From Nitrospinota bacterium (lineage in GTDB: Bacteria; Tectomicrobia; Entotheonellia; J063), in NCBI GenBank assembly GCA_003696125.1, contig RFHZ01000500.1, forward strand, positions 1-5,326: a stretch of DNA of 5,326 nucleotides, in the 5' to 3' direction. The number at the start of each line of letters is the position of its first letter. Positions within the stretch are counted from its first letter, which is position 1. Under the pieces are notes generated by a model. The model saw only the letters and a list, made by a program, of their open reading frames with translations, had not been told where the DNA came from and made no database searches. Of the stretch, positions 1 to 5,326 are shown piece after piece. A program made the position numbers and the translations under genes.

Positions 1-796
1 AGTGAGGATCGCTAAAGACCAGGACCACCGGCTGACCCCGGTACTCGGCCAGGGCAAGCTCGCCCCCCTCCAGCCGGGGTAGAGTAAAATCAGGCGCCAG
101 CGTGCCGGCTGACAATCCGCTGCGATTGATCCGGCTCCCGGCCAGGGAACGATGTCCCTTGGGCCGGGGATGGCCGTTCGTGGGAGCCGGGGCAGGCGTG
201 TGGTAAGGCGTATGAGCCAGGGCGAGCAGGGCCTGTGCGCCCACGGTGAGGGGACTGGCGATCTTCCCCGTCTCATCGATCAGATAGCCCATGGGGGTAC
301 CATGCGCCTGATACTGAGAGGCCACCTCCCCCTGCTCCTGGACCAGGACCGGACAGCGGATCCCATGCTCGGCCATGAAGGTGCGGTTGGTGGTCATCTC
401 CCCGGTGGTGACCACCACCGGGAGGGGGTGTTCGGGGGAAGTATCGAGCGGCAGCGCGGCCAGTTCCTGGGCCATCTGCCGGCAAAATCCACAGGTGGGG
501 TTAAAGAAGATCAGCAGCAGCCGTCGGCCCTGCCATTGCGCCAGGTGCTGGGGGGTGCCCTCCAGATCAGGGAGGGTAAAGGCCGGGGCCGGTGCGCCGA
601 CCGGTAAGCCCTGGGGTGATGAAGGTGCGGTTCGGCTGGGCCGGGGAGCCGGGGCCGTGCCACGCAGCCTGAGGTGTTCTTCCAGGGCATCCAGGCGGAG
701 CAGGATCCGCCCGTTCTGGTGCATCAGGTGGTAACCGATCCAACACCCGAGGCCCACGATGAGCCAGGGGAAAATGGTGCCAAGTAGTAGAATCAT
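1..796 (-). CDS. Membrane-anchored tandem thioredoxin/TlpA-like (redoxin) protein, 3' end outside window
   Basis: The minus-strand frame is open from ATG at 796 to the window edge (265 codons plus one base), with no stop. Residues 1-24 form one hydrophobic segment (MILLLGTIFPWLIVGLGCW...), probably an uncleaved membrane anchor. A short helical piece and a Pro/Ser/Ala-rich linker run to about 62. Residues 64-193 form a TlpA/AhpC-type thioredoxin fold: the entry motif GAPAPAFTLPDLEG, a beta strand LLLIFF, the active site T-C102-G-F-C105, and the cis-Pro loop GTP168 followed by GYLID. After a second Pro/Arg-rich linker (about 195-226), a second copy begins with LAPDFTLPRLEGG and VVLVFSDPH. The next codon starts with T, which would fit a Cys. 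Family knowledge: such proteins reduce or oxidise thiols outside the cytoplasmic membrane. Substrate and partners cannot be told. ATG is preferred to the adjoining in-frame GTG (799) because the SD lies 7 nt upstream of it. The gene is divergent from the large regulator. No close family name is claimed beyond redoxin/TlpA-like. Confidence 0.88.
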   Translation of the reverse strand, partial: MILLLGTIFPWLIVGLGCWIGYHLMHQNGRILLRLDALEEHLRLRGTAPAPRPSRTAPSSPQGLPVGAPAPAFTLPDLEGTPQHLAQWQGRRLLLIFFNPTCGFCRQMAQELAALPLDTSPEHPLPVVVTTGEMTTNRTFMAEHGIRCPVLVQEQGEVASQYQAHGTPMGYLIDETGKIASPLTVGAQALLALAHTPYHTPAPAPTNGHPRPKGHRSLAGSRINRSGLSAGTLAPDFTLPRLEGGELALAEYRGQPVVLVFSDPH

Positions 797-803
797 CACT
801 CTT

Positions 804-1047: not shown

Positions 1048-1079
1048 ACTATAGCACGCTCTGGGAGCGGAAACTTGAA
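1048..1079 (-). promoter_or_regulatory. Weak candidate promoter for the thioredoxin-like gene with an internal dyad
   Basis: On the minus strand a -10-like TATAGT (1053-1048, 5 of 6 to consensus) is preceded at 20 bp by TTCAAG (1079-1074), a poor -35. Between them lies CGCTC-CCA-GAGCG (1069-1057), a perfect 5-bp-arm dyad. A dyad inside an over-long spacer is the layout of MerR-type promoters, but the -35 is weak and no MerR gene is visible. Transcription from here would give a leader of about 245 nt. The -35 overlaps the last of the TGAAGATT repeats. This is a guess, and the true promoter could be elsewhere in 811-1130. Confidence 0.2.
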
Positions 1080-1105
1080 GATTGTGTGAAGATTTCCTGA
1101 AGATT
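1076..1105. repeat. Three TGAAGATT direct repeats at exact 11-bp spacing (candidate winged-helix regulator box)
   Basis: TGAAGATT occurs at 1076-1083, 1087-1094 and 1098-1105. The second and third 11-mers (GAAGATTTCCT and GAAGATTTCAT) differ at one position. Known for the family: PhoB/OmpR-type and SARP-type winged-helix domains bind tandemly to 7-bp direct repeats separated by 4 bp, so that monomers sit on one DNA face. The neighbouring 1367-4951 gene encodes such a domain. The box lies 27 bp upstream of the regulator's -35, and on the other strand it abuts the weak candidate promoter of the divergent gene. Binding is inferred from architecture only. Confidence 0.5.
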
Positions 1106-1131: not shown

Positions 1132-1161
1132 TTGACCTCCCTTCCCTCTGTCCCCTATGAT
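1132..1161 (+). promoter_or_regulatory. Sigma70-type promoter of the large regulator gene
   Basis: TTGACC (1132-1137, 5 of 6 to TTGACA), an 18-bp spacer and TATGAT (1156-1161, 5 of 6 to TATAAT) predict a start near 1168 and an untranslated leader of about 200 nt. A T7 run (1122-1128) lies just upstream of the -35. The -10 overlaps the ATG at 1157, which argues that this ATG is not the translation start. It is the best promoter match in the intergenic region. Confidence 0.6.
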
Positions 1162-1366: not shown

Positions 1367-4300
1367 ATGATATATCGCTTTGAAGACTATGAACTCGATA
1401 CCCGGCTCTATGAACTCCGCCACCATGGTCAGCCCCTTAAGCTCGAGCCCCAGGTGTTCAATCTCCTCCTCTACCTCATCCAACATTGGGATCGGGTGGT
1501 GAGCAGAGAGGAACTCCTCGACTACCTGTGGCCAGACAGGTTCGTCAGCGAGGGGATCTTGAGTCAACGCCTGATGGCCGCACGCCGGGCCATTGGGGAT
1601 AGCGGACGCGAACAGCGTCTCATCCAGACCGTGCATGGCCGGGGGTATCGCTTTATCGGACGGGTGGAAGAGGAGGCAGCCCCTTCTCCTGACCATACGG
1701 TGCAGGCTGGACTCGCCCCGCCCTCCACTTTAGAGACACCAGGATCAGACCTTACGATTCCAGAACCCCTCTCTTCCCCTGCCTCTCTTGATCCCTCTCT
1801 CCCTTTCTCCTTCTCTCTTTCCGACCAGATCCGCACTTCCTGGACCGCCCTGGAAGGGGAGCGCAAGTACGTCACCGTGGTATTGTGCACCGTGGCCAAT
1901 GCTGCTGCCATCGCCGAGCAGGTGAGTCCCGAAGTGCTGCATACCCTGTTGCATCGCTTCTTTGAACTGGCCTTGCACGAGGTACAGCGGTATGAGGGGA
2001 TCATCACCCAGTTCCTGGGCAACGGGATCATGGCCCTGTTCGGTGTTCCCTTTGCCGAGGAGGAACATGCCCGGCAGGCGGTGCAGGGTGCGCTGGGGAT
2101 CCAGCGCGGGATCGAGCAGAGTCTCACCCCTCTTGGCCAGCAGCATGGAACAGGCCTGGCCGTCCAGATCGGGGTACATACAGGGCTGGTCATCGTGGGG
2201 ACCCTGGAAGAGGGGGAGCGGGTCACCTATACCGCGGTGGGGGATACCCTCACCCTGTTGACGCATCTGCACCAGCTCACCACTCCCGGGATGATCCTGC
2301 TCACGGAGCAGACCTGGAAGCTGGTGGCAGGGTATTTTCAGTGTACCGAGGCCGGTCTGGTGGAGACCGGTGGCGATGCTGCTCCGGTCCGCGTGTACCG
2401 GGTTATCGGGGAGCAGGGGGCCCGCTCCCGCTTCGATGTGGCCCGCGAGCAGGGCTTGACCTGTTTTGTCGGCCGGGAACAGGAGCTGGCCCTGTTGCAA
2501 CGGTGCCTGGACCGGGCCGTATCGGGTCAGGGACAGAGTGTAGGGATCGTGGGGGAGCCTGGACTGGGAAAGTCGCGTCTCCTCTATGAGTTTCGACACT
2601 TTGTTGCGCAACAGGAATACCGCTGGCTGGAAGGATACTGCTTGCCGCAAGGGAAGAGGATACCCTATAGCCCGGTGCTGGAGAAGCTGCACACCGGTTT
2701 TCAGATTGAGGAAAACGATCATCCACACCAGATCCGGGAGAAACTGCGCCAGGGGATCCACCTGTTGGATCCGGAACTGGAGAGGACTGTCCCTTTCCTG
2801 GAGGCCCTGTTTGGACTGCCAGGTACCGATGAGGCCCTACGGCATCTAGACCCCAAAGAGCGGCGGCAACAGACCCTGGCAGCGTTACAGGCGCTGATCT
2901 TTGCCCTGTGCCGGAGACAGCCGCTGGTACTGGTCTGTGAAAACCTGCACTGGATCGATCAGAGCTCTGAAGACTGTCTGGCCATGCTCATCGAGAGTCT
3001 CGCCAGTATGCCGGTACTGATACTTACCACTCATCGTCCTGGGTACAGGGTGCGGTGGGCAGATAACCCCTCCTACACCCAGATTGCCCTGCATCTCTTT
3101 TCCCAGGCAGAGACCGCATCCATGGTCACCGATCTCCTGGGGAGTCAAGAGCTGCCCCCAGGACTCCTCCCCTTCATCCAGGAGCGAACGGGTGGCAATC
3201 CGCTCTTCATCGAGGAGGTAATCCAGTCCCTGCTCGAGCAGGGGAGACTGGTCCGGCACCCTGGAGGCATCCGGTGGAGAGATGAGGTAGGGACCGACTT
3301 CCCGGCGACCATGCAGGACATCATACGGGCTCGCCTCGACCGCCTGGACAGACCGGTGAAGCGCACCATACAGGTGGCAGCGGTCATCGGCCGGGAGTTT
3401 GATCTGCCGTTGCTTACGCCTTTCTCGGAAAACCCGGCCGAACTCCGGTACAGCCTGGAGACGCTGAAGCATCTCGACTTGATTCATGAAACCCATGTCT
3501 TCCCCCAGCCTTCCTACCGGTTCAAGCACGCCGTCATCCAGGATGTCGCCTACCAGAGCCTCTTCGAGCAGCAGAGACAGGAACTACACGGGGCTATCGG
3601 CCTGGTGCTGGAGCAGAGCCTCTCCGCCCAACAACAGGAAGAGCAGGCTGCCATGCTCACCTATCACTATACCCGGAGTAGATATCCGGAGAAGGCGATT
3701 GCTTACTCCTTGCTGACCGGAGACCGGGCCGCTCGTCTCTATGCCTCTACCGAGGCGAGCGCGTACTATGCCCAGGCCCTGACCAGGGCCCAGGCCCTTC
3801 CCCCCTCTCCTGAGGCGTATCGCTTCCAGATCGATGCCACCCTCAAGCTTGCCAGCGTCGGGACGACGCGGGAGGAGTTTGAGCGCAGTCGTGCTGCCCT
3901 GGACCAGGCACAACACTATGCAGAGGCCTTGTGTGATGAGGCGCGTTGGGCACAGGTTCTCTACTGGCTGGGACGGATGTCCCATGTCTTAGGAGACCCC
4001 GTTGCCGCCATCACCTATGCCCGGCAGAGTCTTGAGATCGCCGATCGACTGGAGGATGAAGCACTGGCCGCCCCGCCGGTCAACCTGATGGGACGGGCGT
4101 ACTGGTTTCGCTCCGACTTTGTGCAGGCAGCACAGATGCTGACACGAAGTGCCGAGCAGATGCACCGGCTCGGGAACACCGGTGAAGAGGCCACCGCCTC
4201 GGGTTTTGCCGGTCTGGCCCTGGGACATCTGGGGGAGTTCGCTCGCGCCTTCCCCTATCTGGACCGGGGTATCCGCCTATCCCAGGAGATCCAGCATCCC

Positions 4301-4951
4301 TTAGCCGAAGCGGCTGCATATCACTATCGGGCCATGATCTACGACCAGCAGGGAGAGTGGAGTGCGGTGATCAGGGATTGTGAGCGAGCACGGCAGATTG
4401 CGGCAGAAAAAGGGGATCTCGTCCGAGTCTACCTGGTGAAGATCGTGGAAGGACGGGCCTACACCATGCGGGGAGAACCGGAGCGAGGACGCGAAATCCT
4501 GGAAGAGGGGTTGGCCCTGGCCGAACAGTTGGGGATCAGGCTGGTCCTGGCCTGGCTGAAGACCAACCTGGCCGCCTGTCTGGGACGCCTGGGCCTTTTC
4601 GCTGCCGCCCTCCCCCTCTGTCAGGATGCGCTCACCCTGGCCCAGGCCACCGATGACCGGTACGCCCAGGCCCTGGCTTACCGGATCCTGGCCAAGACCT
4701 TATTTGGTTTGGATCCGGCCGATGCACAGCGGGCAAACCACTACTTCCAGGAGGCGTTCCGTATCCAGAAAGAGATCGGGACTGCACCCGAGTTGGGCCG
4801 GAGCTACGTGAGCTACGCCAGTCTGCTGCAGAGTCAGGGGGAGAGCGACCGGGCCAGGGAGTATCTGGTCCAGGCCAGGGAGCTGTTTCGCCAGATGGGG
4901 ATGACCTGGGATCAGGGTCAGGCCGAACAGCTTCTGGCAGCAATAGCATAA
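1367..4951 (+). CDS. Winged-helix / pseudo-cyclase / STAND-type NTPase / TPR multidomain transcription regulator
   Basis: The 1194-residue protein is probably cytoplasmic, with no membrane segment seen. Residues 1-100 are an OmpR/PhoB/CadC-type winged helix (LKLEPQVFNLLLYL, LWP at 54-56, recognition helix about 60-78, wing TVHGRGYRF). Residues 101-164 are a Pro/Ser-rich linker. Residues 165-345 are a class III adenylate/guanylate cyclase fold lacking its catalytic residues: Thr175 and Asn219 replace the two metal-binding Asp, Gln215 the purine Lys, Thr296 and His300 the transition-state Asn and Arg; Asp293 remains. Residues 367-735 are an AAA_16/STAND NTPase with FVGRE, Walker A GEPGLGKS (396-403), Walker B LVLVCENLHWID (520-531), TGGNPLFIEEV and FKHAVIQDVAYQSL. 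About 785-1190 is a helical array of TPRs. In this family ligand or partner sensing by TPRs is thought to control an NTPase switch, here coupled to DNA binding. ATG 1367 is chosen for its SD. An in-frame ATG at 1157 lies within the -10 element, and the 70 residues it would add look non-coding. Automatic annotation may call it an adenylate cyclase, which the residues do not support. Confidence 0.92.
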   Translation: MIYRFEDYELDTRLYELRHHGQPLKLEPQVFNLLLYLIQHWDRVVSREELLDYLWPDRFVSEGILSQRLMAARRAIGDSGREQRLIQTVHGRGYRFIGRVEEEAAPSPDHTVQAGLAPPSTLETPGSDLTIPEPLSSPASLDPSLPFSFSLSDQIRTSWTALEGERKYVTVVLCTVANAAAIAEQVSPEVLHTLLHRFFELALHEVQRYEGIITQFLGNGIMALFGVPFAEEEHARQAVQGALGIQRGIEQSLTPLGQQHGTGLAVQIGVHTGLVIVGTLEEGERVTYTAVGDTLTLLTHLHQLTTPGMILLTEQTWKLVAGYFQCTEAGLVETGGDAAPVRVYRVIGEQGARSRFDVAREQGLTCFVGREQELALLQRCLDRAVSGQGQSVGIVGEPGLGKSRLLYEFRHFVAQQEYRWLEGYCLPQGKRIPYSPVLEKLHTGFQIEENDHPHQIREKLRQGIHLLDPELERTVPFLEALFGLPGTDEALRHLDPKERRQQTLAALQALIFALCRRQPLVLVCENLHWIDQSSEDCLAMLIESLASMPVLILTTHRPGYRVRWADNPSYTQIALHLFSQAETASMVTDLLGSQELPPGLLPFIQERTGGNPLFIEEVIQSLLEQGRLVRHPGGIRWRDEVGTDFPATMQDIIRARLDRLDRPVKRTIQVAAVIGREFDLPLLTPFSENPAELRYSLETLKHLDLIHETHVFPQPSYRFKHAVIQDVAYQSLFEQQRQELHGAIGLVLEQSLSAQQQEEQAAMLTYHYTRSRYPEKAIAYSLLTGDRAARLYASTEASAYYAQALTRAQALPPSPEAYRFQIDATLKLASVGTTREEFERSRAALDQAQHYAEALCDEARWAQVLYWLGRMSHVLGDPVAAITYARQSLEIADRLEDEALAAPPVNLMGRAYWFRSDFVQAAQMLTRSAEQMHRLGNTGEEATASGFAGLALGHLGEFARAFPYLDRGIRLSQEIQHPLAEAAAYHYRAMIYDQQGEWSAVIRDCERARQIAAEKGDLVRVYLVKIVEGRAYTMRGEPERGREILEEGLALAEQLGIRLVLAWLKTNLAACLGRLGLFAAALPLCQDALTLAQATDDRYAQALAYRILAKTLFGLDPADAQRANHYFQEAFRIQKEIGTAPELGRSYVSYASLLQSQGESDRAREYLVQARELFRQMGMTWDQGQAEQLLAAIA
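1766..1822 (+). other. Polypyrimidine tract encoding the Pro/Ser-rich interdomain linker
   Basis: Of 57 bases on the plus strand, 54 are C or T (exceptions at 1781, 1790 and 1791). It encodes residues about 134-152 (PLSSPASLDPSLPF...), the flexible linker between winged helix and cyclase-like domain. The base skew is largely explained by the Pro/Ser/Leu/Phe content. Confidence 0.6.
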
Positions 4952-5135: not shown

Positions 5136-5326
5136 ATGAAACAAGAAACCTACTCTCCCAGGCAGTCAAGTAGACACGCTACCCCACAGCTTAGCCGGGT
5201 ACCCCGGCTGATCCGGCTGATCACCGAGGTAAAGACCAATCCAGACCAGACCCCGGCCCAGCTCTGTCAGACCTTGGGGATCAGCCGGAGCGGTTTTTTC
5301 CAGGACAAGACCCTGTTGGAGCAGCA
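5136..5326 (+). CDS. Helix-turn-helix transcription regulator (HTH_11/DeoR/WYL-like), N-terminal part only
   Basis: From ATG 5136 the frame is open for 63 codons to the right edge. A basic, probably disordered start (MKQETYSPRQSSRHATPQ) leads into a helix-turn-helix: residues about 22-63 read VPRLIRLITEVKTNPDQTPA, then QLCQTLGISRSGFFQDKTLL. The pattern of a first helix, a second helix ending L-G-[IV]-S-R, then a recognition helix with F/Y-x-D-x-x-L-L matches the winged HTH of DeoR, HTH_11 and WYL-type regulators. The C-terminal effector domain is outside the window, so the signal cannot be guessed. It is codirectional with the large regulator, 184 bp downstream, with its own candidate promoter and SD, so it is probably a separate transcription unit. 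Confidence 0.75.
   Translation, partial: MKQETYSPRQSSRHATPQLSRVPRLIRLITEVKTNPDQTPAQLCQTLGISRSGFFQDKTLLEQ

Follow-up and report, generated by a model that had tools for sequence, protein, structure and literature searches.

The locus analysed here raises a simple question: which protein would bind a threefold DNA repeat placed between two divergent genes, and which gene would it control? The window, by which we mean the whole stretch of 5,326 nucleotides, is the entire contig C845 of a 4.18-Mb, 990-contig assembly that is fragmented and about 8% contaminated. On the + strand it has three copies of the word TGAAGATT, exactly 11 bp apart, at 1076-1105 (repeat search: spacing 11, 11), and the earlier note, which had reported these three copies, is confirmed on this point: TGAAGATTGTGTGAAGATTTCCTGAAGATT matches at exactly 1076-1105 with 0 mismatches, and none of 200 dinucleotide shuffles matches even when 3 mismatches are allowed. 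The array is intergenic, lying between the ORFs 799->2 (-) and 1367->4951 (+), and its 3-bp linkers vary from unit to unit. Read on the minus strand, it becomes AATCTTCA-N3 three times, followed by AGTTT-N14-TGCTATAGTG. A search against Rfam gave no match. The features of the window are as follows, C385 being another contig of the assembly and J017 a Nitrospirae bacterium.

2-799, minus strand: redoxin / AhpC-TSA gene of thioredoxin fold, cut by the contig end, starting at GTG 799 or ATG 796 with AGGAGG upstream; the likeliest regulated gene.
1048-1056, minus strand: extended -10 element TGC-TATAGT, its TATAGT 17 nt after AGTTT; C385 (TGGTATAGT) and J017 (TGCTATAGT) agree with it in element and spacing.
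1071-1075, minus strand: AGTTT, an extension that immediately follows the promoter-proximal unit and is the same in C385 and J017.
1076-1105, minus strand: predicted operator of three exactly repeated AATCTTCA units at 11-bp spacing, with the word and register of the Corynebacterium glutamicum CopR site.
1132-1161, plus strand: weak sigma-70-like promoter TTGACC-N18-TATGAT facing the regulator gene, at a distance of 26 bp from the array (1 found against 0.6 expected in shuffles).
1367-4951, plus strand: protein with domain matches to a wHTH (Trans_reg_C), a class III cyclase, AAA_16 and TPR; a neighbour of the array, earlier proposed as its binder.

OmpR/PhoB-type sites consist of at least two direct repeats in a 10-11-bp register, placed just upstream of a -10 element where they replace or adjoin the -35. 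The window has three exact units at 11 bp in that placement, although the gap to the -10 is longer than the 10 bp of PhoB. The proposal of a PhoB/OmpR-register operator is thus borne out, and to judge from the DNA we consider it right. Like the Pho boxes of Escherichia coli PhoB and cyanobacterial SphR, the array is made of tandem 8-bp repeats with 3-bp linkers upstream of the -10 (PMC1906773), and SphR boxes have at least three units (PMC1906773). The words differ, the Pho box being CTGTACTA as printed for E. coli and CTTAACCT for SphR (PMC1906773), and so does the distance to the -10, which is about 10 bp for the PhoB box and 23 nt for the window array.

A likeness in the word itself is found in the copper system CopRS of C. 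glutamicum. The site bound by its response regulator CopR is TGAAGATTT-ga-TGAAGATTT, and CopR no longer binds once the repeat is mutated (PMC3140484). Set against the CopR box TGAAGATTT-nn-TGAAGATTT, the three TGAAGATT units of the window are rightly spaced, and the ninth base is T in two of the three units and G in the first. The two sites share the word TGAAGATT(T), the 11-bp register, the intergenic position between divergent genes and, as predicted for the window, a two-component response regulator; this likeness is one of DNA word, register and architecture. The window array and others of its type have three or four units, whereas the CopR site has two, and they belong to another lineage. 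Our verdict is that the window array, as far as its sequence tells, is a real operator with a known architecture and a known word.

Within the source genome the array is not alone. A relaxed search of the whole 4.18-Mb assembly for (AATCTT-N5)x3 with up to 3 mismatches returned only three places, the window and the contigs C385 and C324, each with 0 mismatches. The genome scan for the spaced pair TGAAGATT-N3-TGAAGATT that had been suggested for this locus also leads to C385, where there are four units, the fourth with one change. On C385 the array is flanked by an M6-peptidase ORF and by an ORF of 196 aa whose N-terminus has a hydrophobic, signal-like stretch; the AATCTT array of C324 starts directly 3' of a histidine-kinase gene, which itself follows a response-regulator gene. 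No copper gene was recognised next to the arrays of the source genome, and no array within 3 mismatches was found in four genomes of the same class. As a separate observation, an operon-like row stands behind the C324 kinase (L039 2454-5611), consisting of 173-aa and 180-aa ORFs with signal-like N-termini and no Pfam family, and a DUF4382/DUF5666 protein.

The promoter beside the array tells in which direction it is likely to work. On the minus strand the window and C385 have AATCTTCA-AGTTT-N17-TATAGT in common with identical spacing, and the two-unit form of this promoter (gap 22) occurs only in these two places in the whole genome with up to 3 mismatches. A collection scan also found it, identically spaced, in J017 (L053), there before another gene that is truncated at the contig edge. 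In all three loci the hexamer of the extended -10 (TGCTATAGT in the window) comes 23 nt after the last AATCTTC, and there is no consensus -35. A three-way alignment leaves the array, AAGTTT and the extended -10 (TGNTATAGTG) as the only common parts; spacers and leaders differ, and on comparison no shared RNA or leader peptide was seen in the three leaders. Since these parts are common to the three loci, the promoter is directed at the redoxin gene (window), the 196-aa ORF (C385) and the truncated ORF (J017). Leftward transcription would start near 1041, and the array presumably takes the place of the -35, so that an activator would be required. The gap of 23 nt in the three redoxin-type promoters contrasts with about 9-10 nt in kinase-adjacent arrays, wherever a -10 is visible there. 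For the redoxin gene itself, homologues in relatives outside the source genome reach at most 33% over the aligned domain and are too diverged for an orthologous upstream comparison. A fragment elsewhere (G000:C938 2-202) matches the last 67 redoxin residues at 97% and then runs on into a second redoxin-like stretch; judged by its sequence, the redoxin, whose ORF runs off the contig, may have two such domains. At the other end of the window, 5136-5324 covers the first part of an ORF (MKQETYSPRQ...) that may encode a helix-turn-helix and likewise runs off the contig.

In the genome search only three Trans_reg_C proteins came up, namely the response regulators of C324 and C585 and the window protein. 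The C324 response regulator (RR324) passes the NCBIfam heavy-metal model TIGR01387, the family model of CzcR/SilR/CopR-type regulators, with 304.1 bits against a cut-off of 279.2, and its kinase falls just below the kinase cut-off (290.6 versus 292.55). Among the matches listed in a tblastn search against plasmids, SilR and PcoR are 53-57% identical to RR324; no Corynebacterium CopR is among the 60 matches listed. For the well-studied regulators AgrR, P. syringae CopR and PcoR the binding site is an inverted repeat contained in 16 bp (PMC7380067), a site that we do not find here, the candidate sites being head-to-tail direct repeats; the inverted repeat is a property of the studied heavy-metal members and not of the TIGR01387 family model. 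The direct repeats set the window array apart from these regulators and not from C. glutamicum CopR, because inverted repeats belong to the other heavy-metal regulators.

Other genomes connect the word with this kind of regulator. The pattern AATCTT-N5-AATCTTC-N4-AATCTTC occurs in 46 stretches of a public genome collection, many of which, notably in Bacteroidetes, are plain tandem repeats that we left out of the support. Six of the 46 lie within 150 bp of an RR324 or kinase (HK324) homologue on the same strand, L050 and L076 among them being similar to each other and so not fully independent; random placement in the same loci gave a mean of 0.2 and a maximum of 3 in 2000 trials. The array stands behind the kinase in L050, L052, L076, L077 and L084 and before the regulator in L060, and AATCTTC is oriented towards the following gene in the array loci examined. 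This association with regulator-kinase pairs spans several phyla. Response regulators beside the word have 5 to 15 of 18 recognition-helix positions identical to RR324, whose orthologues are 59% identical in J017, 55% in Deferribacteres, 52% in Desulfobacteraceae and 49% in Syntrophaceae. J017 and five other array-bearing genomes all have such an orthologue, and in J017 a degenerate array lies behind the kinase of the orthologous pair.

The closest orthologous pair, in G003 (response regulator 84%), has no array behind the kinase. A degenerate array (TTTCATCTGCC-TTTAATCTTCC-TCTAAGCTCCC) is found there about 5 kb downstream of the pair, before an operon with a PepSY-like gene that by eye is similar to one behind C324, the C324 protein having no Pfam match. 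In G001 and G002 an 11-bp periodic stretch of another word, TTTCTAAGCCT TTTCTCATTCA TTTCTTAACGC, was seen by eye behind the orthologous kinase (L157 5720-6030, minus strand; L158 8830-9130, plus strand), and this site may have drifted together with its regulator.

These observations bear on the earlier note's idea of the wHTH of the 1367-4951 protein as binder of the array, with its own gene, the redoxin gene or both as targets, which we now hold to be very improbable. The place of the array between the two genes would fit, and so would the upstream regions of two distant relatives, in which significant triple arrays stand 85-93 bp ahead of the relative's own start codon (equalled by 0/300 and 1/300 shuffles), the one in G003 being unique in its genome:

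L184 763-797 (G003:C6) and L188 866-899 (G004:C151): 11-bp triple direct repeats before the genes of wHTH-cyclase relatives, words TGTGGCTTTTT; GTAGTYTTTG.

Autoregulation through 11-bp arrays may thus exist for this class of protein, as far as these repeats indicate. The relatives' arrays have another sequence, however, and no 11-bp array was found upstream of three other relatives tested; the expectation that the same word would recur upstream of relatives of the protein fails, the G003 and G004 relatives having either a different array or no array at all. The identical array and promoter stand before unrelated genes in C385 and J017, and the window word recurs beside homologous regulator-kinase pairs in the source genome and several others, including genomes in which no wHTH-cyclase relative was seen (J017 and the five other array-bearing genomes, the absence from J017 not being absolute); the best matches to the window wHTH in these six are their own response regulators. 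The recognition helix of the window protein has 4 of 18 positions in common with RR324, the array with its extended -10 faces the redoxin gene and not the regulator gene, and the CopR site of C. glutamicum, mapped by EMSA and mutated, has this word (PMC3140484). A response regulator probably explains the window array better than autoregulation does, and the hope for a target motif of a regulator class without known sites finds no support here.

A C324-type regulator might also activate both divergent genes, the redoxin gene and that of the cyclase-type regulator, which would extend the explanation that we prefer. C. glutamicum CopR activates both divergent flanking operons from one such site (PMC3140484; PMC3353115), and the rightward promoter-like match lies 26 bp from the array; against this stand the reading direction of AATCTTC towards the following gene and a match no better than chance, and we find this extension rather unlikely. 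Of the two targets named before, the divergent thioredoxin-fold gene is therefore likely and the regulator gene only a possible addition. The C585 response regulator would be a candidate as one of so few Trans_reg_C proteins in the genome, yet it scores below the heavy-metal family cut-off (213 versus 279 bits), no array was seen by eye in the 380 bp before its gene, and the word adjoins the C324 pair and not C585, which leaves it scarcely probable. That the repeat is functionless, arising from slippage or chance, could be argued from the many simple tandem AATCTTC repeats elsewhere; the differing linkers, the shuffles and a -10 geometry conserved in three loci with unrelated flanks leave next to no room for it.

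The window array is thus quite probably the operator of the C324-type OmpR/PhoB-family response regulator of the heavy-metal (CopR/CusR-like) kind, which would activate the redoxin gene. Points against this reading are the G003 pair, the unequal gap to the -10, the spread among recognition helices beside the word, the many plain tandem repeats and the state of the assembly. In the mechanism that we propose, each 11-bp unit (AATCTTC-N4) would take up one phosphorylated regulator molecule, in a head-to-tail row. Sitting immediately upstream of the extended -10, where a good -35 is missing, the molecules would recruit RNA polymerase for leftward transcription of the redoxin gene. Two further targets would be under this regulator, namely the C385 gene, whose 196-aa product has an apparent signal sequence, and the operon that follows the regulator's kinase gene on C324. 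The sequence shows the array, its recurrence in the genome, the promoter geometry common to the loci and the neighbourhood of regulator-kinase pairs in several phyla; that the regulator binds and activates, that transcription runs leftwards in vivo and that the signal is metal or envelope stress is what we infer. The sole hints that suggest copper as inducer are the C. glutamicum precedent and the family model. A redoxin and proteins that seem to carry signal sequences are the predicted targets here; in C. glutamicum the targets are a multicopper oxidase and a copper ATPase.

An orphan array can in this way be assigned to a specific response regulator, and a regulon of three promoters is predicted in an uncultured bacterium. 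The word established by experiment for C. glutamicum CopR turns up again next to response-regulator genes of distant phyla, and there is somewhat less than an even chance that the AATCTTC operator word, in 11-bp tandem arrays that often follow the kinase gene immediately, has persisted across Desulfobacterota, Deferribacteres, Nitrospirae-labelled bins and Actinobacteria, in a group of response regulators whose best-studied members bind inverted repeats. If this is true, regulons of uncultured bacteria would become readable from DNA alone.
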